Below, piece after piece: positions 26,572-42,443 of a stretch of DNA of 64,000 nt; within the stretch, counting starts at the first letter, position 1; each line of letters opens with the position of its first letter. Both the position numbers and the translations under genes were made by a program. This DNA comes from a bacterium. GTDB lineage: Bacteria > Actinomycetota > Acidimicrobiia > Acidimicrobiales > Bin134. Location: assembly GCA_026708015.1 (NCBI GenBank), contig JAPOVT010000054.1:1-64000 (forward strand), given 5' to 3'. Under the pieces are notes generated by a model that was given only the letters and a program-made list of their open reading frames with translations, searched no databases and had not been told where the DNA came from.

Positions 26572-27870
26572 CTATCTTCCATCACGCAAAAGATCTCCAT
26601 CCCTTATACACCTTGTTGTCCCGCCACTCCAACCTTCACTCTTCCGCTCATACAATAGCTTTCGTCCAAGATGTACGATCACATATATGAGTAGACATGC
26701 GGCCCAGAACATCCATGCCAAGCTGAAATAACCATTTGAGACTGAGACTTCAAATATTCCACTGTCTTCTGTGACTGCAAGAAGTACTAGACAAATGAGT
26801 GTATTGGCCAGTAGATACACAGTAATGGCACGTCTCAAGACATAGAGTTCGATATCATCATTTCGTTCTGCTCCTGGGATATCGCAGTTTGCTTCCAATC
26901 TTGTTCGAGAACCAAAAAATATTATGTACGTTCCTTTTGCGACCTGCAATGAATTTCTAAGAATGACTGGCGATAAGTCTAATAGGTACCGAATTCCACG
27001 CCAGACACACTTGATGACTCTTCGAGGTTGGACAATGCTCAATGCTGCCATAGCAGCGACAAATAATACCGACAATATCAATGTGGTCAATGAGGTCCAG
27101 AACCACACCCAAAGCCTGATTGCGATTGCTTGCTTTATCAGCATTGGACCATGCGTTTCGATTGGAGGATGGTTCTTGCCAGTTTTGGGCACTACAAGCG
27201 AAAGGACATTCGGCGACATCTCATCAGGATCGATGAATTTAGGCTGTGGTTTTGGGCCGTCAGGTGTCCTAGCGGATACCAACGTTACAATTGAGTCCCC
27301 TTCAGTTGTCAAGCAGCGCCTTCTTATATCCACTTGGTAGACTACAACCCGGTGTCCTAGATTGAATGAGGCGCCACTATCGACAATTGCAATCTCCTGT
27401 TTTCTACGAAGACTCAATCTGCCCAGTGGGCTGGGCTTGATGGATCGATAGAAGTGATCTAGATTTTCCGACATATGCAATCTTGCAATTATCCTAAATC
27501 CTCCTAATTGCAGCCCATCTATGCTTTTATCTGTGCCAGAACCAGATTGAATGTCTATGCTATCCACAACAAAAGCAGGTTTTCGAGAAGATGGTCGAAG
27601 AAAGAGGGCCGCAAGAATGCACCTAAGGTGGAAATGAAGTGCAAGTAACGGGTTAGGCGAATCTGGCGTGGCTATCTCCAAAGGAACCCGCCCTGATGTC
27701 GCTATGACTTGACTACTTGCACTTCTGGCAATTCGCAAAAGATAGCCACGATGGATTAATTTATTTCGAATTCTCGTGCTTTCGCTGGGCGTGCTATCTC
27801 CGATTGCCCTCCACAAAAAAGCCGCTATAGTACAGCTGGCCGCAACGATATACAATATTTGAGCCGCCAT
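26572..27870 (-). CDS. Unrecognised membrane protein in the DUF499/DUF1156 operon
   Basis: A 432-residue protein, visibly A+T-richer than the surrounding genes, which suggests recent transfer. Hydrophobic spans are seen at the N-terminus (QILYIVAASCTIAAFLW), at about 250-285 (LWVWFWTSLTTLILSVLFVAAMAALSIV), 350-370 (VYLLANTLICLVLLAV) and 385-405 (LAWMFWAACLLIYVIVHLG). The 220 residues between the first and second span form a soluble domain with basic and beta-rich segments. I recognise no family. It starts 48 bp downstream of the DUF499 gene on the same strand and so may be the third member of that operon, possibly a membrane effector. Confidence 0.65.
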   Translation of the reverse strand: MAAQILYIVAASCTIAAFLWRAIGDSTPSESTRIRNKLIHRGYLLRIARSASSQVIATSGRVPLEIATPDSPNPLLALHFHLRCILAALFLRPSSRKPAFVVDSIDIQSGSGTDKSIDGLQLGGFRIIARLHMSENLDHFYRSIKPSPLGRLSLRRKQEIAIVDSGASFNLGHRVVVYQVDIRRRCLTTEGDSIVTLVSARTPDGPKPQPKFIDPDEMSPNVLSLVVPKTGKNHPPIETHGPMLIKQAIAIRLWVWFWTSLTTLILSVLFVAAMAALSIVQPRRVIKCVWRGIRYLLDLSPVILRNSLQVAKGTYIIFFGSRTRLEANCDIPGAERNDDIELYVLRRAITVYLLANTLICLVLLAVTEDSGIFEVSVSNGYFSLAWMFWAACLLIYVIVHLGRKLLYERKSEGWSGGTTRCIRDGDLLRDGR

Positions 27871-27918: not shown

Positions 27919-30900
27919 CTACTCAAACTCGGAAGCGGTAGCGCCGAGGTTGGAGGCGTTTTCGGACACTGTACGTTGGGTGGATTCGTTGAAGCCGTCA
28001 GGGTTGGTGGCTCGTACTTCTAGGACGAGCTCGACGTCGGGGCCGAGGTGGGCGCTTATGTGTTCGGCGATCTCACCAAGCTCCTTGATGCAGCGCACGG
28101 GGTCGAGGTCGAACTGGGCGTAGAACTGGGTTGAACCCTGGGTTGGCGCTGACTCGGCGCCAACCCCCTGGTCACCTGGGGGAGATGTCTCGGGGCCGCC
28201 TTCAGGACGCTCAACCGTGAGCTCTGGTTCTGCGGGTTCAGGCAGTCGGTCGGGGTGAACGAGGAGACCACTAGGAGCGGGGATGACGTGTTGGCCGGTT
28301 TGGATCCCGACCCAGGTTGACCCGTCGTGGGCATCCGCGTAGGCGAAGGTCTCTTGGGCCCAATCGGTGCTGGCAGTTCCCGCGCTTATGGCAGAGTCGA
28401 GCACATGAGGTGATGAGAGCCTCGGCATGTGGGGATAGCGGGCGTAGATTTCTCGCAGCTCCCTCAAGGTCACGTCGCCCTGTTCTGTCCACAGGTCACG
28501 GCGGTCGATGTCCATGCGCACCCGCACTCCGCTGTAGGCGGCGATCATCTTTTCCTCAGTGGCCAACTTCTTGGACACCCGAGCTCCTATGTCGCCACTG
28601 GCGGTTGCCCTCGTGGTCTGCCACTCAATTTCGGAGGTGCCAGCTTCCTGTTTAGGAGTAAGCACCTGGGTGAACGTCTCTGAAATCAAGCTGTCCACCT
28701 GCTGAGAGACTTCCTTCATTTTGCTCTCAGCCTGTCCCTTCTGGTGGGGGGTCAGGTCAAGGGGCTCGTGTTCATCGACGATGGACCGCCAAGCCAGATA
28801 CAGCCGAGCTGCGTCGCGGAGCTCGCTCAACCGATTGGCCGAGGCGGCCACGAATACGAGCAGGTTGCGATTCAGGCGGGGACCGCCGTGGCGCTGATCC
28901 AAGATGTTCTGGGCCAGGGCTACGGCCGGAGAGTGCTCGTCATTGGCTGAATGGGTGGCATCAGGTTCGAGTACCACGAGCCGCACACCGTCATCGTCGT
29001 CCGGGACGTCGCCCGGTCCCTCGGCAAACACCTGCACCGCGGCAAAGTCACCTCGGTCCCGTTGATTGGCGAGCCGGACCTTCACTTCATCATCGGCGTG
29101 ATTGTCGGTGTAGTTCGAAGCGGCCCGGTCTGCAGCCATCCTGGTGACATTGGGCTGGAGCGAATACCAATACTGGGCACCATCCACGTATAGGTGGGTG
29201 GCCTCCCCCGAGAGCCGACGAAGCGCGTCAGCGAATTGACCGATTGGCTCGCCGGGCTGCACACAGCCCAGCACCACCGACTTCAGGTCAACTCCCCGCT
29301 TGCCATCGGGCCGGGACGCCGAGCCCATGTACACGGTTCGGGCCGCTCGCCTGGTGGCGGAAAGTCGGCCAAAATGGCTGTTGGCGTTGTCAATGCGAAG
29401 CGGTAAGGCGTTGGCGCCATCGACGTCCGACTTGATGACTGGATCCCAGGCTTCCTCCAGATACTTCTTCATCTCGCTGACCAGCGCCCCAGAGTCCATC
29501 GGCAAGTTGCCCGGCATGATCAAAAGCGACTGGTCGCCGCGCTGCCACAGCTGGGAGATGGCCAGCGCCATCAGCCGCAACACACCGCGGGTTCGCTGGA
29601 ACTTGTCCAGGGCAGACCAGTCGTCGAAAAGCCGGTCGAACAGCTCAGGGTGGATCGGGTACGACAACTCCATCCGCTTGCGATAGTCGGCCTCGCCCAC
29701 TCCCGACGGGAACTCCTTGGCCTGGTCCCGGTACATATCGCAGTACGCCCGAATGACTCCGTCGCGCACCCTGGCCATCTCTGACGGCACCGGGTCGAAC
29801 AGCCGCCGCCGAACAATTTCAAACGACTCATCGGGTGATGCCGGCTGCCACTGGGCTGCCTTGCGGGTGACCACGTTCTTCAGCTTCTCCAGCGCTGTGC
29901 GCCCTCGCTCGGCACCCACTTCGACGTCGGAAGCGGGTATCGACACCAGCACTACCACGTTGGAAACTGCCCCGGCGGCTTCGGTGAGCGCCTGGGCAAA
30001 GGTGAACTGGGTGTCGAAGTCGCCGCCAACGAGGAGCGGCCCATCGCCGCCGTCGCGCAGCTGTCGGGCGTAGGCCACCCATTCATCGATTAGCACCACT
30101 GCCGGGCCGCACTGCTGGAAAAGCGTTCTTAGCGCTGCCCCCGGGTTGGTCCCTGCCTCGTCATCAACTCTGACCAGCTCATAGGCATCCCGTCCGCCAA
30201 GTTGATAGGCCATCCGGCCCCACAAGGTGTGAAGAGATACGCCGTCTTCTACCTGCTCAGGCTTCGACGGGGAGATCATCTGGCCGACCATCACCGCCCG
30301 AGACACATCATCAGGCAATGACAAGCCTTCTTCAGCAAGGATCTCCCCCACTCCGGGCAACTCTTTGGCCTGCACGCCCGAGGCCAGGTGGTAGAGCGCA
30401 ATCAGACTGTGGGTCTTGCCGCCTCCGAAGTTGGTCTGCAACTCGATGATCGGGTCGCCCCCACCCCCCGACAGCCGGCGAGCAGCCCCAACGAGTAGAT
30501 CCCGCAGACCCTGGGTGATGTAGGTGCGAGCGAAGAACTCCTGAGGATCCTGATACTCCGGTTCAGCGTTGCCGCTCAGCACCTCGAACAAATCGGCTGC
30601 GAATTCGGCTTGCTCAAAGTTCCCCTGAGCTACATCAGCGTGGGGCGTGATGATCTCTCGCCACGGAGTCAATCCCGCGGTGGGATGGCCCTCGGTGGGC
30701 TTGGCCGCCGTCTTGCGACGCTCGGCGCGAGATTCCTCCTCCACCATCTGGCGCATGAGGTCGCGGCGAAGATTTCGGATTTGCTGGCGCTCATCGAGAT
30801 TGCCGAAGGCCTCCAGCAACCGTTCCATCGAGTCGAGTGCCCGCGCCGTGTCGTCGGTGGACAAGGCTTGCTGGTGCGCCCAGCTGTTGCGAGCATCGGC

Positions 30901-31158
30901 CACCTCGAACACCAGCGCCCGGATCGCCGGCGGAAAGCCATGGCCGAATACTTCCTGCCAAGTGGCCTTCATCCCCTTGAACAGAAATGCGGCATCTTCA
31001 GTGGATGGATTGCGATCAGGAGTGTGCAGCCGACTGTTGACCGTCTCGAGCCACCCGTCGCCGTAGAACCCCTGCCACGTATCCTCGCACTTCGGCCGCA
31101 TCCCATCGCGCAACAAGTCGAGCGCCCGAGCAATCCGCTCGGTATTGGCCATCACCAT
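27919..31158 (-). CDS. HEPN(Swt1-type)-DUF499 AAA+ ATPase, predicted anti-phage protein
   Basis: 1,079 residues. Residues about 5-115 form a Swt1-type HEPN domain with the RNSWAH motif (Arg90, His95), the RX4H pattern of HEPN ribonucleases. Then comes DUF499: LTPWREIITPHADVAQGNF, Walker A in LQTNFGGGKTHSLIAL (about 240-254), Walker B in AVVLIDEWVAYARQ (about 353-366), and a long C-terminal part to a Pro-rich linker near 995. DUF499 ATPases occur beside DUF1156 methyltransferases and SNF2 helicases in predicted defence loci, as here. An ACGGAGAAC Shine-Dalgarno precedes ATG 31158. The DUF1156 gene lies 244 bp upstream, and the membrane gene 48 bp downstream. Confidence 0.9.
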   Translation of the reverse strand: MVMANTERIARALDLLRDGMRPKCEDTWQGFYGDGWLETVNSRLHTPDRNPSTEDAAFLFKGMKATWQEVFGHGFPPAIRALVFEVADARNSWAHQQALSTDDTARALDSMERLLEAFGNLDERQQIRNLRRDLMRQMVEEESRAERRKTAAKPTEGHPTAGLTPWREIITPHADVAQGNFEQAEFAADLFEVLSGNAEPEYQDPQEFFARTYITQGLRDLLVGAARRLSGGGGDPIIELQTNFGGGKTHSLIALYHLASGVQAKELPGVGEILAEEGLSLPDDVSRAVMVGQMISPSKPEQVEDGVSLHTLWGRMAYQLGGRDAYELVRVDDEAGTNPGAALRTLFQQCGPAVVLIDEWVAYARQLRDGGDGPLLVGGDFDTQFTFAQALTEAAGAVSNVVVLVSIPASDVEVGAERGRTALEKLKNVVTRKAAQWQPASPDESFEIVRRRLFDPVPSEMARVRDGVIRAYCDMYRDQAKEFPSGVGEADYRKRMELSYPIHPELFDRLFDDWSALDKFQRTRGVLRLMALAISQLWQRGDQSLLIMPGNLPMDSGALVSEMKKYLEEAWDPVIKSDVDGANALPLRIDNANSHFGRLSATRRAARTVYMGSASRPDGKRGVDLKSVVLGCVQPGEPIGQFADALRRLSGEATHLYVDGAQYWYSLQPNVTRMAADRAASNYTDNHADDEVKVRLANQRDRGDFAAVQVFAEGPGDVPDDDDGVRLVVLEPDATHSANDEHSPAVALAQNILDQRHGGPRLNRNLLVFVAASANRLSELRDAARLYLAWRSIVDEHEPLDLTPHQKGQAESKMKEVSQQVDSLISETFTQVLTPKQEAGTSEIEWQTTRATASGDIGARVSKKLATEEKMIAAYSGVRVRMDIDRRDLWTEQGDVTLRELREIYARYPHMPRLSSPHVLDSAISAGTASTDWAQETFAYADAHDGSTWVGIQTGQHVIPAPSGLLVHPDRLPEPAEPELTVERPEGGPETSPPGDQGVGAESAPTQGSTQFYAQFDLDPVRCIKELGEIAEHISAHLGPDVELVLEVRATNPDGFNESTQRTVSENASNLGATASEFE

Positions 31159-31402: not shown

Positions 31403-34165
31403 CTAGAGCATCGATTCTTGGACGGGGCCCGCAGCGGAGGCGGCCGTAGCATCGGCCCCGGCCCGGAGGTTGGGCCAGGCCGTAATGAGACCGTTGTAGG
31501 CCCCGGCTTCTGCTGCCCAGCCCTTGTCGTTGGCCTTCTGATAGAGGAGATAGGCAAGCAGGCGGACCCGCTCGCTGTAGCCGCCGAGAGCGTGCAGGAG
31601 CTCCGCTGCCTCTGATTCCGACCGCTCCAATGCTGCGACCAGATATTGGAGCGCCTCCCACACCGTGAGACGAGGGTCCGTAGTCGGTAACCAACCTTCA
31701 GCAAGTTCAGATCGCTCGTAGAGGCGGAACTTGCCGGCCCGGGCCTCACCAATACCCGATTCTTCAATACCCGCCAGAGAGGTGTTCTTGGCATTAGCCA
31801 CGCTGTCGGCGTCTCCTGAGGGGCCTGGGTTGTAGCCATGTTCTGAGAACCAGGTGAGGGCGAACCGGGTGTCACGATCTAACTCCGCTTCTTCGCCATC
31901 GAGCACCTCGCCCAGTACGTCGTTGATGATTGCCAGCGCCGCCGAGACCGGCATGGATGAACCATCGGCTTCTACGACCTTGGCATACCGTGAGAACACC
32001 TTGATTCCTGGCCCGATGGTCGACTGTGCCATATCCACCGGGGCGATATTCCCGGATTGGAGAATGCACACCGCCTCAGGAAGCTCCTCGCGCAGCGCCG
32101 CCATGAACTCGCCGCGCGTGGCCAGCGATGCCGAAGCAGGCCGGGGACGACAGGCCAGCACGATTGATGAGGCCAGAGCATTGCTCTTTGAAGCCACCAA
32201 CCGGTTGCCCAATTCGGTTCTCATGGGCCAAGTGGCATTGACCTGCAAGCCTGCATCTAGAACCGCCTGGAGGAACGTGTCCCAGCCGGTAACGCGCAGT
32301 TCGCCGTCGCGGGCCTCGGTCGCCTTGTACGCGTAATAGAGCGTTGCTGGCAGCTCGGCTGGCTGGCACTCGGCGACCTGGTCCATGAACTCGAACATCC
32401 CCGACTCGAAGTGCTCCTCGGCCGCTTCCTTGGACCCGGCTCGATGCCGATTGGCGATCAGCTCCTCAGCCTTGGGCGTCAACAATGTGGAGCACTCATC
32501 AGGCCAGATATCTAGGAGGCCATTGCGGAGCCAAACAAAGAAGAAGTCGGAGAGATAGGAATACCCCACATTGTCGTAGTAGGGCGGATCGGTAGAAATA
32601 GCCGCCCCAGTGGATTCCCTTACACGAGCCCGGGCATCTCGCTGGAGAGCTTCGCCATGAGTCTCAGATGGAAGATGCTCCAAGGCCTTGCGAACCCATG
32701 CGACCATGGCAGTCCAATTACCAGCAGAGTTGGAAAATGGATTGCACTCAGCGAAATCCCAAGTCATGGGGATCGCCTGGCGCCCGAAAGTATTGCGAAC
32801 TAGCTCTCTGGAGTTATGCCAGGTGCAGATGTTCGACCAGTAGTCTGCGCCTTTGTCCACCGCGAATGCCAAGCACGTGACCACAGCGTCGGCATAGGCC
32901 TTCGCGCCGCGGCCGCCGTCGCGTAGCCGCACGCCATCGTCAGCCATACCCGCAGCGAGGGCATCCGAAGCCACCTGCTCGGCTACCTCGGCAAGAAGAT
33001 CAGAAAACGTGGTCAGCGCGGTGAGCTGGCGGGGTGTGAACAACTTCTGATACTCGTCCACCCCATAAATGTGTATCGAGATGCTCCTGGGATAAAGGTC
33101 CAAGCGTTGCGACGGAGCATTTGCGGGTGTTTCAACTACGGCAGCTGAAACATCGGAAGACTTGGCTTCGCAATACCATCTACCCAATTCTCCTTCAGCA
33201 ACGACAGACATCAGATGCTGTCGGAGTCTCCCTTGCCTGCTCTGCTCTCTGATGTAATCAACGTGGATCGCCGCTCCAGTGGCTATGCAGGTGCCGTTGC
33301 CCCGGTTCACAGTCCTCTCGTATGCCGGTTCGCCGCCCTCGCGAATCTCGTAGCTGACGGTCTGGGTTTCCCGGTCGATAATCGGCTCAATCCACACCCT
33401 AGGCTTGCCTGGCTTGTTGACAAGCGTCCACGACGCCACCAATGGCACATGCCCCGACCAGCTGGGATCAGGCGACTCCACCGTCCGAGCCCATATCCAG
33501 GCAATCGGCGTCAGCTTCTCCCCATCCGGACCCGTTGCATCCGGGTACAGGTGCCCGATCCGCCGCTCAGCATCATCTCGCATCCACTCCCCATAGGCCT
33601 CCACGTCCGCAGCCAACCCCTGCGCCCGCTCCCAAGTGGTCAAGGTCTTGTCAATGTCCGGATGAACTGGAGGCATCCCAGTAAAGCGCGGCGGTATCTC
33701 AATCATCGCCTTGTTGATCAACACCGCCACCGGGTTCAGATCACCAGCCAAGGCCTTCAACCCGAGCCGCTGCGCCTCCAGGGGAATCGCTCCACCGCCG
33801 GCAAACGGATCCAGAATCGGCGGAGGCCCATCCGGAAAACAGCGGTCGATCTCTGCTCGCGCCTCAGCTAGCACTTCAGGGTTGTTGGAGTTCTCCCATT
33901 TCACCAGCCGCTCCAGAATGCGAAACAACCGCTGCCGTTCTCCTTCCTGCTCCTCTGGGGTAAGCGACTCATCCCCTGACGGATCATCCACCAGCGACGC
34001 CCAAATCACCGCTCGAGCCGCCGCCAGTGGCCGCCGAGCCCACCACAAGTGCAACGTCGATGGATGCCCATGCCGAATCGACTTCTCCCGCGCCGCCTCC
34101 GCGTTAATCGCCGCCAACGGCAACGCCACCTCAATCAGCTTCGACTTGTATCCCCCATCACTCAC
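31403..34165 (-). CDS. DUF1156 domain DNA methyltransferase, predicted anti-phage
   Basis: About 920 residues. KLIEVALPLAAINAEAAREK followed by SIRHGHPSTLHLWWARRPLA is the DUF1156 signature at the N-terminus. ILDPFAGGGAIPLEAQRLGL (about 120-140) is the SAM-binding motif, and STDPPYYDNVGYSYLSDFFF (about 530-550) holds the DPPY catalytic motif of N6-adenine or N4-cytosine methylases. The open frame continues to an ATG at 34258 with no ribosome site. The GTG at 34165 sits just before the conserved start and is used here. It should modify host DNA so that the locus's nuclease function spares it. It opens an operon with the DUF499 gene and faces the Fic gene. Confidence 0.88.
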   Translation of the reverse strand: MSDGGYKSKLIEVALPLAAINAEAAREKSIRHGHPSTLHLWWARRPLAAARAVIWASLVDDPSGDESLTPEEQEGERQRLFRILERLVKWENSNNPEVLAEARAEIDRCFPDGPPPILDPFAGGGAIPLEAQRLGLKALAGDLNPVAVLINKAMIEIPPRFTGMPPVHPDIDKTLTTWERAQGLAADVEAYGEWMRDDAERRIGHLYPDATGPDGEKLTPIAWIWARTVESPDPSWSGHVPLVASWTLVNKPGKPRVWIEPIIDRETQTVSYEIREGGEPAYERTVNRGNGTCIATGAAIHVDYIREQSRQGRLRQHLMSVVAEGELGRWYCEAKSSDVSAAVVETPANAPSQRLDLYPRSISIHIYGVDEYQKLFTPRQLTALTTFSDLLAEVAEQVASDALAAGMADDGVRLRDGGRGAKAYADAVVTCLAFAVDKGADYWSNICTWHNSRELVRNTFGRQAIPMTWDFAECNPFSNSAGNWTAMVAWVRKALEHLPSETHGEALQRDARARVRESTGAAISTDPPYYDNVGYSYLSDFFFVWLRNGLLDIWPDECSTLLTPKAEELIANRHRAGSKEAAEEHFESGMFEFMDQVAECQPAELPATLYYAYKATEARDGELRVTGWDTFLQAVLDAGLQVNATWPMRTELGNRLVASKSNALASSIVLACRPRPASASLATRGEFMAALREELPEAVCILQSGNIAPVDMAQSTIGPGIKVFSRYAKVVEADGSSMPVSAALAIINDVLGEVLDGEEAELDRDTRFALTWFSEHGYNPGPSGDADSVANAKNTSLAGIEESGIGEARAGKFRLYERSELAEGWLPTTDPRLTVWEALQYLVAALERSESEAAELLHALGGYSERVRLLAYLLYQKANDKGWAAEAGAYNGLITAWPNLRAGADATAASAAGPVQESML

Positions 34166-34461
34166 AGCGAGCCACGCTACCCCAATGCAGGAGCCTTCCT
34201 GGCCCCCAACGGACCTCTGTTCAGCTTCACTCAAGGACTGCGGAAAGGAGGGCTTCATGACGCTTTTGGAATTTCGTGTTGCCGAGAAATGGCAGATAGG
34301 TAAACTCCTGAGAATGACATGCTTGGAACTTCACAGCATGGAGAACCGGATGGGCAATGGCTGCACCCCGCATCAACCTGCTCATCCACGTTGCTGCTGC
34401 CTGGGAGTAACAACCTTTGGTTCTCTCTCAAAGAGTGCTAAATCTGGCCTGGAATAGTCCC

Positions 34462-35652
34462 ATGAGCAAGTCAGTGACCGTTGCCCAGCTAGCCCAACAA
34501 GCAGATATGGACTTGGACGATGCACTAGCCGATCTCTGGGATGCTGGTATCGACGAGGTCCTTGACCCTGATGACCTCATTCCACCGAAAATGCTCAAGG
34601 CAGCTGAACAAGCCCTAAATGTTGTGAACCATAAGCAGCAACTCCGAATCGACTATTGGTTGGAGCGAACTGGCCTTACTAGAATTGAATTTGAAGAAAT
34701 GGCAAGCTCTATCGGGGTACGCATAAAACCAAACATGCGCAAATTGCCGAAGGGTGGACTCCGACGCATAAAGCGACAATTCCAAACTGTACAACCAAAG
34801 ATAGAGCAGACGGAGACTGAACCAATAGAAAGTCCGCCATTTAAGTGGTTTCAGGTTGGAAATCGGCGTCCTAGTGCATATTTGTTTGAAGAGGACATTC
34901 TTGGGATACATGAATCGCTTGTATTGGACTTTGCTATGTCAGATGATCCTATTTCTCCGTCGGAAGTAAGGGATGTAAATCTGATTGGGTCAGCAATCTC
35001 TCGCCAGCATACATCTTTGGGCCATGAGCTAAAGTACGAGACCGTTGAGATGGCTGCAGCAGCCCTAATGCATTCCTTAGTATTCAATCACTGCTTTTAT
35101 AATGGGAACAAGCGGACTGCATTGGTCTCAATGTTGGCTTTCTTGGACATGAATTCAGTGATTGCAACTTGCACTGAAAATGACTTATACCAATTTACTC
35201 TGAATATTGCTCGACATAAGATTGTGGATTCACGTTATGACCAACTCGATGATCGTGAAGTGTTGGAAATGGCCTTGTGGATAAGATCTAACAGTAGACG
35301 GGTCGAAAAGGGCGAGCGACCAATTCCGTGGCTTCGATTGAGAAGGATTCTCAATCGATATAATTGCGAGTTTTCGACAGATACTGGTAAGGGAAACCGC
35401 CTAATAATTCAACGAAGAGTGGAGAACCGTGGGCGAATGCGACGAAAAAAAAGGGCGCTTCTTGAAAGTCGTGTTACATGGAGTGGTGATGGCTCCACTG
35501 TTGGAAGAGGGGTTCTACATCAAATCAGGAAAGACCTCGAACTTGACGCAGAACATGGAGTTGATTCAAAGGTCTTTTACGAGGCAGAAGCGGAACCAGA
35601 TGACTTCATTCAGGTCTATCGTAAGGTTCTGAACAGGCTAGCAAGACTTTAG
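34462..35652 (+). CDS. Fic/Doc family protein with a HicA-like C-terminal part
   Basis: About 396 residues from ATG 34462, with an upstream start possible at 34417. The N-terminal 60 residues (VTVAQLAQQADMDLDDALADL) resemble the small helical domain found at the start of IF2. The central Doc-like domain has HSLVFNHCFYNGNKRTALVS. The Fic motif is H-C-F-Y-N-G-N-K-R, with Asn where Asp or Glu normally binds the metal. The end (LRRILNRYNCEFSTDTGKGN, then TVGRGVLHQIRKDL) looks like a HicA toxin fold. The gene is A+T-rich. It lies opposite and divergent to the methyltransferase. It may AMP-ylate or phosphorylate a target, if active. Confidence 0.78.
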   Translation: MSKSVTVAQLAQQADMDLDDALADLWDAGIDEVLDPDDLIPPKMLKAAEQALNVVNHKQQLRIDYWLERTGLTRIEFEEMASSIGVRIKPNMRKLPKGGLRRIKRQFQTVQPKIEQTETEPIESPPFKWFQVGNRRPSAYLFEEDILGIHESLVLDFAMSDDPISPSEVRDVNLIGSAISRQHTSLGHELKYETVEMAAAALMHSLVFNHCFYNGNKRTALVSMLAFLDMNSVIATCTENDLYQFTLNIARHKIVDSRYDQLDDREVLEMALWIRSNSRRVEKGERPIPWLRLRRILNRYNCEFSTDTGKGNRLIIQRRVENRGRMRRKKRALLESRVTWSGDGSTVGRGVLHQIRKDLELDAEHGVDSKVFYEAEAEPDDFIQVYRKVLNRLARL

Positions 35653-35708: not shown

Positions 35709-37010
35709 TTATTCAATTGCGGGAACCCCAGCCACGTCTTGATATTTGACTGGATTGCTTAGATCTTTCACCACCTTCTTCACCCAAGCTGCTGTGTAGC
35801 CGTATCCACCTAGCAATCGATCCCATTGACAGTAGCGATCATCTGTTTCTTCTGGGATATCTGATTTGCCAGGTGGTCGGACGCCATAGTACTTCCAGCA
35901 CAGGGTGTGCGTATGCATCGTAAAGCGGAACGGCAATTGCTCGGCGACTTGGTCTACTACTTCCGATGGCTTGAGTAGATCGGCAGATGCCACTGGTCTG
36001 ATTCTCACCCTAGTCACAACTTTCGTTTCAGGAAGCTGCGACGCGAATTCGGGGGTAACTTCTTCAGGCGTGATGAAATGTACGACCTCATCGGCTGATT
36101 GCTTCCGGTTCGCAGTGGTATGGACGAAGAAGATTCGACGAGTGTATTTCGGGCTCGTAATGACTTCGTCCTCTAATTCTGCACTGTGACGAGCCAGATA
36201 GCTTTGGATATCTTCGGGGAGTTGGCCCTGTGCTTTGCGTAAAGCTGACAAAGAGCCATCATTTCGGAATCCGCTTAGCTGCAACGGAACAGCCAGAAGC
36301 TCGCCAAGCGCTGCGCCCTGGCCGAACTCTTTGATTAGAATATCCTCAAAGTTGAGAAGCATCGCTTGAGATTTGCCGACGGTCTGATTGTCGAGTGCTG
36401 GCAAATACCGATGGGCGATCTGATTCCTAAGCCCGATGAAGAAGTCTAGATTCGCGCGAACAGGCCGATTGTCTTTGCCGCTCAGCGCGAGTTCCACTAG
36501 CTCCCAGGTGCCCAGAACCTTTACTCGCCCCCCTATCAATACCTCATTCCCATCATCGTCGCGCTCGTAGTAGTCAGTCCCCGAACGCTCCAGCAAGGCT
36601 TGGAGCAGTGAATTCCACGCTCCGATCATCAGGACGACGAAGGCCTCTGTCCTATATCCCGCTAGCGGGTCGTTGTAGATCCGGATCGCCGCTAGGGCAC
36701 TCTCTCTAGCATTCGCGAGCAGGCGATACTCCTCACCGAGGTCGCCATCCCCTCCGGGTGAAATCCCGTTGGCGCGCAGGACTGCTTCTAATTCCTCGAT
36801 TCGGATGCTCTGACGCGACCGTCGTTCCGTATCTTCGCCTGTCCACCTCTTGACAAACGTTGTGAAGACCTTGCCATGCGCGGTCGTGTTGCTGAAGTAC
36901 TCCTCCTCCAGCCTCGACTTCGGCTCGCCGTTCCTCCACCGGTTGTACATCTCGGTTGCGATCTGGATGTGCTCTTGATCATTGGCCCGCTCGTTGTCGT
37001 TATCTTCCAC
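35709..37010 (-). CDS. DUF3644 domain protein with HEPN-type motif
   Basis: A 433-residue protein from GTG 37010 behind an AAGGAAGAG ribosome site. A DUF3644 domain spans about residues 100-215: RESALAAIRIYNDPLAGYRTEAFVVLM (here about 102-128) and IGLRNQIAHRYLPALDN. The segment R195-N-Q-I-A-H200 is the RX4H motif of HEPN ribonucleases. The C-terminal half has an EVTPEFASQLPETKV stretch and a Trp/Tyr-rich end. DUF3644 proteins are mostly found in defence islands but have no agreed activity. Its neighbour on the left is the convergent Fic gene. Confidence 0.82.
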   Translation of the reverse strand: MEDNDNERANDQEHIQIATEMYNRWRNGEPKSRLEEEYFSNTTAHGKVFTTFVKRWTGEDTERRSRQSIRIEELEAVLRANGISPGGDGDLGEEYRLLANARESALAAIRIYNDPLAGYRTEAFVVLMIGAWNSLLQALLERSGTDYYERDDDGNEVLIGGRVKVLGTWELVELALSGKDNRPVRANLDFFIGLRNQIAHRYLPALDNQTVGKSQAMLLNFEDILIKEFGQGAALGELLAVPLQLSGFRNDGSLSALRKAQGQLPEDIQSYLARHSAELEDEVITSPKYTRRIFFVHTTANRKQSADEVVHFITPEEVTPEFASQLPETKVVTRVRIRPVASADLLKPSEVVDQVAEQLPFRFTMHTHTLCWKYYGVRPPGKSDIPEETDDRYCQWDRLLGGYGYTAAWVKKVVKDLSNPVKYQDVAGVPAIE

Positions 37011-37870: not shown

Positions 37871-38021
37871 AGCCGCCGCCGAATTTCTCTACCAGGTAGT
37901 CCGTGGCGGCCTTTTCCGCCTCGGCCCACGTCGAGTGAGTTGAGTCCGGATAGTGGGCGCTCGGTGCCCGCACCTCCCACAGATCATCGCGCTTTCTCAC
38001 CACCAAGCGTTTCTCTGGCAT
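37851..38021 (-). CDS. 56-residue DUF2188-like protein
   Basis: This short gene starts at ATG 38021 and ends at 37851. It reads MPEKRLVVRKRDDLWEVRAP at the start, then a Thr-Trp-Ala-Glu-Ala-Glu helix and an AATDYLVEKFGGGYVDI ending. A beta hairpin with a conserved Trp, then a helix, then a final strand is the DUF2188 pattern of small single-domain proteins. It is the first gene of a two-gene minus-strand unit (the 74-residue gene overlaps it by 20 bp). It is divergent from the NYN ribonuclease gene, and the two start codons are 57 bp apart. Confidence 0.6.
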   Translation of the reverse strand: MPEKRLVVRKRDDLWEVRAPSAHYPDSTHSTWAEAEKAATDYLVEKFGGGYVDIIL

Positions 38022-38078
38022 ATCAACTCATTTCGATATATTAGAAGAATTGCCGTTAACCCACTATACACTGCCACG

Positions 38079-38729
38079 ATGCGAGTCGGGGCCTACATTG
38101 ATGGCCTGAACCTCTACTACGGAGGCCGCCACCTGTGCGGTCGAGGCACCCCTGGATGGCGCTGGCTGGACGTTCCGAAGCTTGTTGAGCTTCTGGTCAG
38201 CCGCAACAAGGACTGGATTGACCAGCAGGCCGTGGTACATCGCATCGCATACTGCTCAGCGATGATCGACGGCGTTCCCGACGCCCATGCACCCCAAAGG
38301 CAGCGGACATACTTGGCAGCGCTCGAAGCAGACTCGCGGGTCGCTATCGAACTCGGGACCTTTGTCAACCGCAACGTCAAGGGCATCGACGTCTCAACTG
38401 GGGCAATTCAAACCGTCCAAGTGCCCGAAGAGAAGGGGTCCGACGTAAATGTGGCCTCACATCTCTTGATCGATGTCCTGACTCACAGGATCGACGCCGC
38501 CGTCTTGATTACCAATGACAGCGATCTACGCCTGCCAGCCCAGCGCGCTCGGGACCACCTGCCGCTGGGCACTGTCAACCCCAGAGGCACCCCAACCGCA
38601 CAAGCACTGCGAGGCCGACCCGACGACGGCGCTAGCGGGCACTGGTGGTACTCCCTAACCGCCGAAGACTTCTTCTCATGCCAACTCTCCGACGCGGTTG
38701 GCGAGCACCGGAAGCCAGCGGGTTGGTAG
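38079..38729 (+). CDS. NYN domain protein (predicted endoribonuclease)
   Basis: A 216-residue NYN/PIN-like domain. VGAYIDGLNLYYGGRHL holds the first catalytic Asp. EEKGSDVNVASHLLIDVLTHRI holds the second Asp, and AAVLITNDSDLRLPAQRARD the third and the Asn. These residues form the metal-binding site of NYN RNases. The protein would cleave RNA, consistent with other RNase-type genes in this island. The open frame runs 42 codons further upstream, but the ATG at 38079 has TACACT 6 nt before it (38067-38072) and matches the family start. Confidence 0.85.
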   Translation: MRVGAYIDGLNLYYGGRHLCGRGTPGWRWLDVPKLVELLVSRNKDWIDQQAVVHRIAYCSAMIDGVPDAHAPQRQRTYLAALEADSRVAIELGTFVNRNVKGIDVSTGAIQTVQVPEEKGSDVNVASHLLIDVLTHRIDAAVLITNDSDLRLPAQRARDHLPLGTVNPRGTPTAQALRGRPDDGASGHWWYSLTAEDFFSCQLSDAVGEHRKPAGW

Positions 38730-38889: not shown

Positions 38890-41800
38890 TCAGCAGGGGT
38901 CTTGGGCGACTTCCAGAAGATCGGCGACAGTGAGAGGTACGCCGGGTTGGGCGAAGTGGAGGGTGACATCTCGGAAGGGGTCGACTAGGTATCGCACGGT
39001 GGGGGGTTCGGTGGGATCGTCAGGGACGGAGACTACGGCTAAGCGCCAGTGCTCGGGGAGAGATTTGGCTTTGCTGATTTGCTGGGCGCTGATGTGGATT
39101 TCGGTGGTACGGGGGAGGTGGCCTTTGACTTCGATGAAGTAGTGGGTGCCGGTGTCGGGGTCGATGGAAAGCACGTCGTAGCCGGGATTGCTGTGGGCCT
39201 GGGCCTCAGGGTTACGGCCGAGGGCTCGCTCGGCTTCTAGGACGGCGGCAACGGCTCGACGGTCGGTCTCCATCTTGTCGGCAGTTTCTTCGGGGTCGGG
39301 AGGTGTGCCTCGGAACTGATCGATGAGTCCTCGAGGAACCACGATTGCCGCACCGACAATGTTGGGCGGGCTGTTGTGGAGGTCGCTTTCTCGGTCTAGA
39401 TCGAGCCGCCGGCGGGTTAGCCGAGTGGCCAATTCGTCGGCCCGAGCCCGGGCTCGACCGGAATTGATCCGGGGTTTTTGGCCGGCCAACTCCTGTCTCT
39501 TCAACTCCTCGGCCCGCTGGTCCCAGTAGCGGATCTCCGCTTCGAGACGCTCTCGAACAGCCTCGCTGACCTTAGCCACTCGAGCTTCAGTGACACGGTG
39601 GATTTCTTCGAAGTGCGGCTGAGACAGGTGCTCGATGGCCCAGATCTTGGCCGTCTCCTCAGCAGTGTGATCGGCCCAGTCCAAGTCGAGATGGCCTTCG
39701 AGCAGCGTTCGGTCTTCATCAGTCAGCGGGGCGTAGCCGATATATGGCTCATTACCAGCGTTCTGGGCGTTTCCTTGTTGGTCGATCTCTACATACTGGA
39801 ACCGCCGGGATACCACTTGGCGATGCCCGTGGACCTGTCGTCCGTCGGTGACAGAGTGATCGAGGTACACCAGCAGGCGTGGCTCGGTTGACTGGTCTTG
39901 GGGGTCGGTCAAGGTCGCACCCCGAAACAGCGTGTGCTCATGGTCGGCGAGCACTTTGTTGATGACTGCGGTGAGTAGCGGGGTGCCCGGTGAGATCAGC
40001 TCGGCCCGGTCACCTCCATCGAATTGGACGAAGGCCTTGTCGAAAGTGACCCGTTCGTAGCGGTCGTGTACCGGGCCGAGATTGGAATCGGCAAACGAGC
40101 GGACCGAGGATGGGATGCGGGTTATCTCGTATCGGCCCCTCTCCCGACCGGTGATGCGCCCTCCATATTGGCGAAGAGCCTCGGAGAAGAACCCGTGGAC
40201 AAACCACGGTTGCAGCTTGCGGGCCCGAGCCCGTTCCATGTCCCCTTTGATCTTGTCGTTGAGCGCCGGATCGGCGAGACCTCCGACGAAGGCCCTCTCT
40301 TTCAGCACGTCCTCAAGCTGCTTGCCGATGTCGCCTTCGATGACTTCTTGCATGTATTCGAGGTGGGCAGGATCGTCGTCGGCAGTGATGGCCTTGAGCA
40401 GGAGTTCTTGGAGTGAGGTGTTGATATGGGAGTCCCCCAGCACGTCGTACACCTGGTCGCCATACACACCCCGCTGCTGCTCGATCTTCTCGAACAGCCG
40501 GGTGAACACCACTCCCTCCCTGGTCTGGTGGGCGACCATGTTCCACAGATGGCAAGGCCGCTGCTGACCGATGCGGTGGATGCGGCCAAACCGCTGCTCG
40601 ATGCGGTTCGGGTTCCACGGCAGGTCGTAGTTGACCATCATGTTGGCCACTTGGAGGTTCACACCCTCGCCGGCGGCGTCGGTGGCCACCAGCACCCGAA
40701 CCGTGGGGTCGACTCGGAACCGGTCTTGAATGGCCCGGCGGTCGTGGCGCTTGATGCCACCATGGATGACCGCCACCGTCTCGGGACGGCCCAGCTCAGC
40801 AGTGATCCGCTCGGCCACGTAGTCGAGGGTGTCTTTGTGCTCGGAGAACACGATCAGCTTGCACGGGCCTGCTGGCGCATCGTCGCCGTCGGGATTCTCG
40901 CCCTTGCCGGTTCGGAACTGCTCTGACCGCAGCAGACCCCGAAGCTGAATCCACTTGGTGTCTTCTCCGCTGGTCCGCACCGTGTCGGCCAGCTTGACCA
41001 GACCTCCCAGCTCAACCACTTCTGCCTCGATCTCCTCGGCGGTGGCAGAAGCGGTGGCGGCGTCGATGACGTGGTCTTCAAGCTCTTCGAGCTCCACGTC
41101 GTCGAAGTTGTCGAAATCGAAGTCTTCCAGGTCGGCGAACCGCACTCCCCTGGGCAGGTCCGCTACTGGCACGGGTTTGCCCCCCGCAGTCAGACGACGC
41201 AGTTCGGAGGCTTGCTCGGAGAGCCGGTCGCGGCGCCGGCGCAGGGAGTGGTAGATGGCCGCCGGTGATGAAGCCAGCCGGCGCTGTAGTGCGGCAAGAG
41301 CGAACCCGAAAATGATCCCCCGGCGGCGGTCCCCCTCCTCCTGCATCCGAGAGGCCCGGTCCATGCCGCTGCGCACATAGTCGGAAACCGCCTCGTACAA
41401 CTCCTGTTCGGGTTCAGACAGCTCGAAGTTGACGCTGTGGGCGAATCGCTGAGGAAACAGCCGGCGTCCTTCAAATGTGGTCAAGTTCTCCTTCACCAAC
41501 CGGCGCATCACGTCGTCGGTCTCGGGCAATTCGTTATCCCGAAGACGCCCGGCAAACCGCTCAGGATCGATGAGGGTCATGAAGGCCAAAAAGTCCTCGT
41601 TCTTGCCGTTGTGAGGGGTGGCCGACAACAGCAGGAAATGGCGGGCTCGGTCGCGCAGCACCTCGCCCAGCTCGAAGCGCCTGGTCTTGCGCAACTCGTC
41701 GCCGTAGAGGTGAGCCGACATCTTGTGGGCCTCGTCGACGATCACCAAGTCCCAGTCGGCCAGCTTGAGCTTTTCGATGAGATCCTCGGCCCGTGACAGT

Positions 41801-42426
41801 TGGTCGACCCGGGCCACCAACAGGTTCTTCTCCAGAAATGGGTTGCCGGTGCGCGACGCCTCCACCGCCGAGCGCGACATCAACTCGAAGCTGAGGCCGA
41901 ACTTGTCCCATAACTCGTCTTGCCACTGCTCCACCAGGCTGCCGGGGGCGACTATGAGACAGCGGGCCACATCGCCTCGCAGCATCAGCTCTCTAATCAG
42001 CAGCCCCGACATGATGGTCTTGCCCGCTCCGGGATCGTCGGCCAGCAGGAACTTGAGCGGGCGCTGTTCTAAGAAACGGTTGTAGACGGCATCGATCTGG
42101 TGGGGGTAAGGCTCGATGTTGGAGGTGTCCACTGCGGCGTATGGGTCGGCCAAGTGCGCCGACTGCATGCGGCGGGCCTCAGAGGCCAGGCGAAACGCCG
42201 CTCCGTCGGCATCGAATGACCACCGCTGCTCGGAGACCTCCTGGATCCGGGCAAGATCGTCGAGCGTGACGATGCGCTCGCCGAGACCTCCGTTAGCCGA
42301 ACGATAGGTAAGGGTGGCCGACCCCGTTCCATGGACGTCTACGGCCACGACGGTCACATCGCCATCGGCCACCACTCCCGACAGCCGTTTGCCGACAGTG
42401 AGTTCGTCGAACTCCAGGCCAGTCAT
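38890..42426 (-). CDS. SNF2-type helicase with C-terminal DUF3883 nuclease-like domain (DrmD-like)
   Basis: About 1,178 residues from ATG 42426. Motif I is LLADDPGAGKTIMSGLL (about residues 128-144) and motif II is VIVDEAHKMS (DEAH, about 228-237). LLLSATPHNGKNEDFL, KLIVFSEHKDTLDYVAERI, VLVATDAAGEGVNLQVANMM and FGRIHRIGQQRP are SNF2 helicase motifs III to VI. The C-terminus (about 1070-1130) reads YDVLSIDPDTGTHYFIEVKG, with an Asp and an ExK suited to a PD-(D/E)XK-like site (DUF3883). Such helicases act in DISARM-related and DUF499/DUF1156 defence loci. A GTG at 42435 is possible, but TAGCGT sits 7 nt before the ATG. It starts 24 bp from the divergent SDR start. Confidence 0.9.
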   Translation of the reverse strand: MTGLEFDELTVGKRLSGVVADGDVTVVAVDVHGTGSATLTYRSANGGLGERIVTLDDLARIQEVSEQRWSFDADGAAFRLASEARRMQSAHLADPYAAVDTSNIEPYPHQIDAVYNRFLEQRPLKFLLADDPGAGKTIMSGLLIRELMLRGDVARCLIVAPGSLVEQWQDELWDKFGLSFELMSRSAVEASRTGNPFLEKNLLVARVDQLSRAEDLIEKLKLADWDLVIVDEAHKMSAHLYGDELRKTRRFELGEVLRDRARHFLLLSATPHNGKNEDFLAFMTLIDPERFAGRLRDNELPETDDVMRRLVKENLTTFEGRRLFPQRFAHSVNFELSEPEQELYEAVSDYVRSGMDRASRMQEEGDRRRGIIFGFALAALQRRLASSPAAIYHSLRRRRDRLSEQASELRRLTAGGKPVPVADLPRGVRFADLEDFDFDNFDDVELEELEDHVIDAATASATAEEIEAEVVELGGLVKLADTVRTSGEDTKWIQLRGLLRSEQFRTGKGENPDGDDAPAGPCKLIVFSEHKDTLDYVAERITAELGRPETVAVIHGGIKRHDRRAIQDRFRVDPTVRVLVATDAAGEGVNLQVANMMVNYDLPWNPNRIEQRFGRIHRIGQQRPCHLWNMVAHQTREGVVFTRLFEKIEQQRGVYGDQVYDVLGDSHINTSLQELLLKAITADDDPAHLEYMQEVIEGDIGKQLEDVLKERAFVGGLADPALNDKIKGDMERARARKLQPWFVHGFFSEALRQYGGRITGRERGRYEITRIPSSVRSFADSNLGPVHDRYERVTFDKAFVQFDGGDRAELISPGTPLLTAVINKVLADHEHTLFRGATLTDPQDQSTEPRLLVYLDHSVTDGRQVHGHRQVVSRRFQYVEIDQQGNAQNAGNEPYIGYAPLTDEDRTLLEGHLDLDWADHTAEETAKIWAIEHLSQPHFEEIHRVTEARVAKVSEAVRERLEAEIRYWDQRAEELKRQELAGQKPRINSGRARARADELATRLTRRRLDLDRESDLHNSPPNIVGAAIVVPRGLIDQFRGTPPDPEETADKMETDRRAVAAVLEAERALGRNPEAQAHSNPGYDVLSIDPDTGTHYFIEVKGHLPRTTEIHISAQQISKAKSLPEHWRLAVVSVPDDPTEPPTVRYLVDPFRDVTLHFAQPGVPLTVADLLEVAQDPC

Positions 42427-42433
42427 CCGGGCC

Positions 42434-42443
42434 ACGCTACCCT
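42434..42443. promoter_or_regulatory. Overlapping divergent -10 elements (helicase / SDR)
   Basis: The top strand reads ACGCTACCCT. TACCCT (42438-42443) ends 6 nt before the SDR ATG at 42450. The same T42438-A42439 step starts TAGCGT on the minus strand (42439-42434), ending 7 nt before the helicase ATG at 42426. Two leaderless promoters would share one TA. This resembles the divergent element at 25,162. Confidence 0.6.

Follow-up and report, generated by a model that had tools for sequence, protein, structure and literature searches.

The gene at 34462-35652 (+ strand) of the 64,000-nucleotide stretch of actinobacterial DNA analysed here (the window) encodes a 396-aa protein, recognised by its open frame, its Pfam Fic and TIGR01550 matches and its homologues, in which an IF2N-like start precedes a Doc-type Fic domain and a HicA-like domain that lacks the catalytic histidine. 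Phages, satellites and bacteria all carry the Doc and HicA-like pair joined in this way, in part at known phage-defence sites. We propose, giving the idea about an even chance of being right, that one gene here suffices as a self-contained anti-phage toxin from a subfamily of Doc; on this reading the protein is probably a Doc-like phosphotransferase directed against translation, in which the dead HicA fold would serve as sensor, brake or docking module. What is new here is the family-wide unit of Doc and nuclease-dead HicA, its setting as cargo of phage satellites, and its meeting with the Hma system.

The frame is intact (0 stops), and its translation contains both of the C-terminal strings quoted in the initial annotation, which had described an unusual three-part chain of IF2N, Fic and HicA elements. 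That chain is both real and unusual, each part being supported by Pfam and TIGR01550 or by profiles, and it recurs in other actinobacteria; the initial annotation had suggested looking for it in other genomes. The HMM search of each third, also suggested there, named the middle part (Fic, TIGR01550) and failed in Pfam for the N- and C-terminal parts, which were recovered by profile-profile comparison; scans with Pfam, NCBIfam and PADLOC all left these two parts unnamed. Matches to the PADLOC candidates PDC-S23/S05/M59B are confined to the Fic core, and filing the protein under them was rejected on that ground. The AlphaFold model of the whole protein has a mean pLDDT of 63.8, with both ends weak and the C-terminus of low confidence. 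The gene is AT-rich, at about 43-46% GC versus about 58-63% for the surrounding locus, and from this we infer that it probably arrived in the locus separately.

Twenty-three sequences carry both the Doc and the HicA-like parts. This set omits viral loci that lack the C-terminal part (L047-L056, L103, L115 and L116) and repeats of the same contigs (L039-L042, L095, L097-L102, L104-L107 and L110-L113), still contains the near copies L033/L046, L035/L036 and L108/L109, and represents the broken copies by one uninterrupted piece each (200 aa of L032, 289 aa of L058). In a tree with 47 ordinary Docs, the 23 family Doc domains form one side of a branch (support 76/94, recovered in 74% of bootstrap trees), and a single fusion event is the history that we favour, as one not proven by these sequences. 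The full form is rare: within the order, 87 of 397 genomes have Doc-like matches and four match the full model of Doc plus C-terminal part; within the phylum, Doc-like matches occur in 49 of 296 genomes, and beyond the window genome G111 alone reaches the C-terminal end (residue 394) without an internal stop, two weaker, stop-broken matches ending at residues 320-331.

A form of 240-odd residues that lacks the N-terminal modules corresponds to PHROG 18015, which shares the whole Doc and HicA-like length and has no function assigned to it; its profile matches the window protein with E 2.5e-25 over residues 144-303 and the Salmonella/E. coli inovirus member with E 5e-175, and matches in 3/396 genomes add one more, G726, to the carriers. 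Proteins of this type are encoded in Vibrio filamentous phage records (the one opened is frameshifted), an inovirus-like Salmonella plasmid, an E. coli inovirus remnant, Klebsiella plasmids and IMG/VR contigs. Among 5426 E. coli genomes, one form is present in 8 and another in 5 (coverage of at least 80%). RefSeq names the relatives 'type II toxin-antitoxin system death-on-curing family toxin', and a search of the open-access subset of the literature found no paper joining Fic domain, Doc, HicA and fusion.

The middle of the window protein belongs to the Doc branch of the Fic/Doc superfamily. PF02661 (Fic) matches residues 141-228 (E 1.5e-12, 48.6 bits versus a cut-off of 24) and TIGR01550 (Doc) residues 143-253 (E 1.8e-13, 50.7 bits versus a curated cut-off of 38.65), and residues 138-279 of the model (34873-35298, + strand) superpose by VIA-align on P1 Doc (3dd7_A) with Z 16.9 and an rmsd of 1.7 over 122/123 aligned positions. 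The model of a relative, L035, reaches Z 15.2 against P1 Doc, Doc-fold matches overall spanning Z 14.6-16.9. Within this domain, the altered Fic motif described in the initial annotation, HCFYNGNKR, is present at residues 210-218 (35089-35115, + strand), with Asn in the place of the metal ligand. This fifth motif position is Asn in 23/23 family members and Asp in all 47 distinct motifs of ordinary Docs taken from genomes of this phylum and order, these being drawn from 54 loci of ordinary Doc matches, three of them without the motif. The acidic residue of HxFx[D/E]GN[G/K]R is therefore missing throughout the Doc and HicA-like family, which fits only a published Asn group, so that as a novelty the motif was anticipated: the motif section of Khater and Mohanty (2015) sorts Fic/Doc motifs into five groups, HxxxN[A|G]NKR being one, and there allows for possible inactivity or a different function (PMC4454073). 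That group is defined in the section by motif only, and the section mentions neither a HicA-like fusion nor a defence setting (PMC4454073). A literature search combining Fic motif, death-on-curing and asparagine found no paper. Column 252 is a second constant difference from ordinary Docs, with His in all 23 members and Gly in the 20 of 47 ordinary Docs that a simple pattern could place.

In two prophage contigs (L039 5950-7227 and L044 5980-7200) Doc genes lie in tandem, a short Asn-motif Doc (HPFFNANKR) standing directly before the Doc and HicA-like gene; since these short upstream Docs also have Asn, the residue by itself does not mark the fusion.

With Asn in place of Asp at the metal ligand, the enzyme may be dead. 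On such a reading, which we consider unlikely and yet the strongest of the rivals, the Asn-motif Doc domain would transfer nothing and the protein would be an RNA- or ribosome-binding regulator; the exchange at the metal ligand in 23/23 members would be explained, as would the presence of three potential binding modules and the positive charge (net +10) of the window protein's C-terminal domain. Against this, the H, N, K and R of the motif together with H252 and E266 are invariant in 23/23, as expected for a working active site, and two copies are frameshifted (L032 and L058), as is often the case for costly toxin genes. If the domain is active, phosphotransfer of the Doc type would be likelier than AMPylation, in view of its grouping with Doc and its NKR in place of NGR. 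The family may show whether an Asn-motif Doc is active, a question that dates from 2015. Compared with P1 Doc and TIGR01550, then, the Fic fold over the whole domain, the Lys-containing HxFx-ANKR/GNKR type of motif and the RefSeq annotation of the relatives are held in common, whereas Asn for Asp, His at column 252, the HicA-like domain with its tail, the absence of a Phd partner and, in the actinobacterial branch, the IF2_N-like start set this family apart.

The missing partner was sought directly, among 333 frames of at least 30 aa lying within 500 bp of 18 family genes. No partner frame is conserved across the 18 loci; matches between loci occur between close pairs only: the window and L002 share the HmaB flank, L038 and L117 a downstream frame on the minus strand (in L117, the integrase), L044 and L109 the upstream Doc pair, and the Salmonella and Klebsiella loci a single match of 26 aa. 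The standard arrangement of phd-doc or hicBA, with a shared antitoxin or HicB neighbour, was looked for in the same 18 loci and set aside on this result. The search thus speaks against a toxin-antitoxin unit of two genes; a partner in the form of an RNA or a highly divergent peptide is compatible with it.

An ordinary toxin of the phd-doc type, its antitoxin being unlinked, an RNA or a fast-evolving small protein, is an alternative that we regard as improbable, a little more so than a catalytically dead Doc. It would agree with the RefSeq name of the relatives and has a precedent in SoFic, which by the account given in PMC12249575 has an overlooked 47-aa antitoxin gene; it sits badly with the lack of any shared neighbour frame of that minimum length outside close pairs, and with the carriage of the gene alone, as cargo, in P4-like satellites. 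SoFic itself, in that same account, resembles the self-contained toxin that we propose in being a single Fic gene in phage defence and a self-inhibited toxin, which holds here by proposal, but it differs in being a class II AMPylase with an N-terminal inhibitory helix (PMC12249575), where the present protein is of Doc type and has no such motif.

In the C-terminal part of the window protein, PF07927 (HicA) finds no match at E <= 1. A profile of the 23 C-termini, compared by hhalign with 24 HicA sequences, nonetheless gives a probability of 90.3% (P 1.5e-6), set against 0.6% for a reversed target and 2.7% for the best of 100 column shuffles; the same profile scores 3.9% against IF2_N and 0.2% against dsrm, and this general dsRNA-binding family was rejected in favour of HicA. 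The AlphaFold model of L035 (14 rows, mean pLDDT 86) has the order helix-strand-strand-strand-helix in this part, and by VIA-align its residues 145-205 match E. coli HicA (6hpb_A) with Z 7.2, rmsd 2.1 and 57/57, and its residues 140-218 match 1whz, a structure that a HicA query also finds, with Z 7.3, rmsd 2.6 and 69/70; a Z of about 7 is in the range that the tool calls common or middling, and the weight lies in sequence profile and fold agreeing. The fold assignment is made on this relative, the window protein's C-terminus being poorly modelled: a fold search with the window protein's own weak model placed no HicA chain among the listed matches, and searching BFVD assigned the C-terminal part to no clear family. 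Taken together, profile and fold bear out the structural likeness to HicA put forward in the initial annotation, and place a HicA-like domain at residues ~288-365 (35323-35556, + strand).

This domain seems to have lost its catalytic residue. The catalytic histidine of strand 2 is present in 24/24 HicA sequences and in 0/23 family members, and a review describes this residue, in the portion concerned with HicA, as required for RNase activity (PMC7180214). Since it is absent from all 23, an RNase role, which the initial annotation had entertained, is unlikely, and judged from sequence and model the domain is HicA-like but is not a HicA toxin. A double toxin in which the Doc and HicA-like domains are both catalytic, the latter as an mRNA interferase, has the fold and profile in its favour, but we find it highly improbable and have dropped it for want of this histidine, the more so as the domain's net charge, +10 in the window protein, falls to about zero or below in several members from phages. 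Beside HicA toxins (PF07927), therefore, the alpha-beta-beta-beta-alpha domain and the profile match are shared, whereas the catalytic His and HicB are lacking here and the fusion to Doc is added. The text of Gerdes (2024), so far as its main account goes, sets out 14 HicA contexts, including HicB and SMC fusions and Viperin neighbours, and contains no words beginning 'Fic' or 'Doc' (PMC10865869); if our reading is true, this catalogue would gain a Doc fusion.

Beyond the HicA-like domain lies a family-specific tail (residues 366-396; 35557-35649, + strand) made up of a DSxxFY motif and a C-terminal helix, in which D, S, F, Y and L393 are invariant in 23/23. This tail may bear on regulation. 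When the L035 model was used for a fold search, 15 class III Fic rows (ranks 4-18) aligned out to model residues 237-242, and the alignments of two NmFic mutants, the deletion 3se5 and the double mutant 3sn9, stopped at 136-139, at the Fic core; these alignment ranges, which are not residue correspondences, suggest on the model that the tail helix takes the position held in class III Fic proteins by their inhibitory helix. With the weaker model of the window protein, this result was not reproduced. The window protein lacks [ST]xxxE[GN], the inhibitory pattern of classes II and III, which occurs in 4/23 family members, three times at the tail and once inside the Fic motif.

Drawing on these findings, we propose a speculative model of how such a protein might act, each step of which we hold less firmly than the general reading of a self-contained anti-phage toxin. 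As a lone toxin gene, it would need a brake of its own, and we suggest that in the uninfected cell the Doc active site is held inactive in cis by the C-terminal part. On infection this restraint would be relieved, and the freed Doc domain would then modify a translation factor, with EF-Tu as the known Doc target, such that growth stops and the infection is aborted; the relevant passage of a review states that Doc phosphorylates EF-Tu and stops translation (PMC7180214). The HicA-like and IF2_N-like parts would serve as binding modules (for RNA, ribosome or a phage product) and not as nucleases. The proposed logic is like that of the CapRel type of fused toxin and sensor, described in part of PMC10865869 as a toxin held by its own phage-sensing C-terminal domain; there, the toxin is unrelated to Doc, and here, sensing is only proposed. 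If true, the 'death-on-curing toxins' would include a separate, self-regulated defence family in which a dead toxin fold is reused as a regulator.

The start of the protein resembles two IF2_N-like units. No match to PF04760 (IF2_N) was found in the N-terminal part at E <= 1; by hhalign, the whole N-terminal part scores 69.9% against IF2_N (shuffles at most 3.8%), unit 1 (residues ~2-55; 34465-34626, + strand) 84.2% against 29 IF2_N sequences, and unit 2 (residues ~56-112; 34627-34797, + strand) 64.5%, with 11.2% as the best of 100 shuffles. Each unit thus resembles IF2_N by itself; compared with each other they score 0.2%, so that a duplication is not shown. The query profile comprises five sequences only and, with no Pfam match beside it, makes the claim to IF2_N weaker than that to HicA. 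The start is complete in the window, L059, L060 and L094, and in the frameshifted L058 it lies on a separate piece upstream; the start of L003 is shorter and of another kind, and L002 and the phage members are without the IF2_N-like part. A putative role in targeting the ribosome is plausible.

In the 8 E. coli genomes with the first of the two forms counted above, five were opened, and in 5/5 the fused gene belongs to a P4-like element in which nothing else is annotated from psu to the integrase. The psu-int interval is a P4 hotspot of anti-phage systems according to the main text of the paper that describes it, from which the words 'Fic' and 'Doc' are absent (PMC9122126). These satellite copies offer an immediately testable gene, whose product is WP_073464939.1 (242 aa). 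In one E. coli P4-like element (L211 8462-8729) the copy has kwaA (Kiwa) in its vicinity, on the far side of a second integrase. A prophage copy (L114 1799-5628) lies near an ATPase-like gene, and the product of another nearby gene resembles, by eye, an FRG-domain protein.

The window gene has a different address, inside an Hma system with HmaA, HmaB and HmaC, where it stands between HmaB and a DUF3644 gene. HmaB (31403-34258, - strand; PADLOC 1054 bits), an N6-adenine methyltransferase with DUF1156, is divergent from the Fic gene at a distance of 203 bp; HmaC (27919-31158, - strand; PADLOC 932 bits) is a DUF499 ATPase with an N-terminal Swt1-like HEPN domain (HEPN_Swt1, E 1e-22); and HmaA (38890-42435, - strand; PADLOC 1282 bits) is a SNF2 helicase. 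Between them, the DUF3644 protein (35709-37010, - strand; PF12358, E 9.6e-38) is the PADLOC candidate PDC-S19 (E 1.7e-81), and DUF3644 is listed as a new HEPN family in a section of PMC3710099. The main text of a 2026 survey equates Hma with 'Type-1 BR', a BREX-related, restriction-like system with HEPN-DUF499, and lists nuclease effectors for Type-1 BREX-related loci, with 'Fic' absent from that text (PMC12839542).

Hma genes are nearby in 4/7 actinobacterial loci (the window, L002, G726 and G400). In L002, HmaB is 90% identical to that of the window, and on this likeness the two are probably the same locus, leaving about three of the four associations independent; in G726 HmaC is directly upstream on the same strand, and in G400 HmaA is 6 kb away. 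No Hma genes were seen in G453, G593 and G111, over 13.6, 7 and 3 kb of DNA, respectively. Across the order, HmaB is present in 60/397 genomes and in 3 of the 4 with a full Doc and HicA-like match, an overlap with a chance probability of about 0.01 by a hand calculation that ignores relatedness. The Fic chain was also considered as a core Hma gene and rejected as such on these counts, with a full match in 4/397 genomes versus HmaB in 60/397. We speculate that the window copy would be a reserve effector alongside the restriction-like Hma system; Hma and other Type-1 BREX-related loci would then gain a protein-modifying effector. In its widest and most tentative form, which we think possible but put well short of an even chance, the proposal is of an unnamed one-gene defence system, in which a Doc-type transferase with an active-site-stripped HicA as cis sensor and brake is spread by filamentous phages and P4-like satellites, and to which actinobacteria add tandem IF2_N-like ribosome-docking modules, recruiting it as a suicide effector of Hma/BREX-related loci.

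Several neighbours deserve a brief mention. The Swt1-like HEPN of HmaC is an expected RNase effector of Type-1 BREX-related loci. Also within the window's Hma locus, 37953-38729 (+ strand) encodes a NYN-domain protein matching the PADLOC candidate HEC-09 (E 4.7e-26), and beside HmaC lies an AT-rich frame of 432 aa (26572-27870, - strand) to which neither Pfam nor PADLOC gives a match. In G400, a gene with an Abi_C domain (L087 1617-2429; E 3.1e-22) immediately precedes a frameshifted Fic chain, which is one more defence setting.
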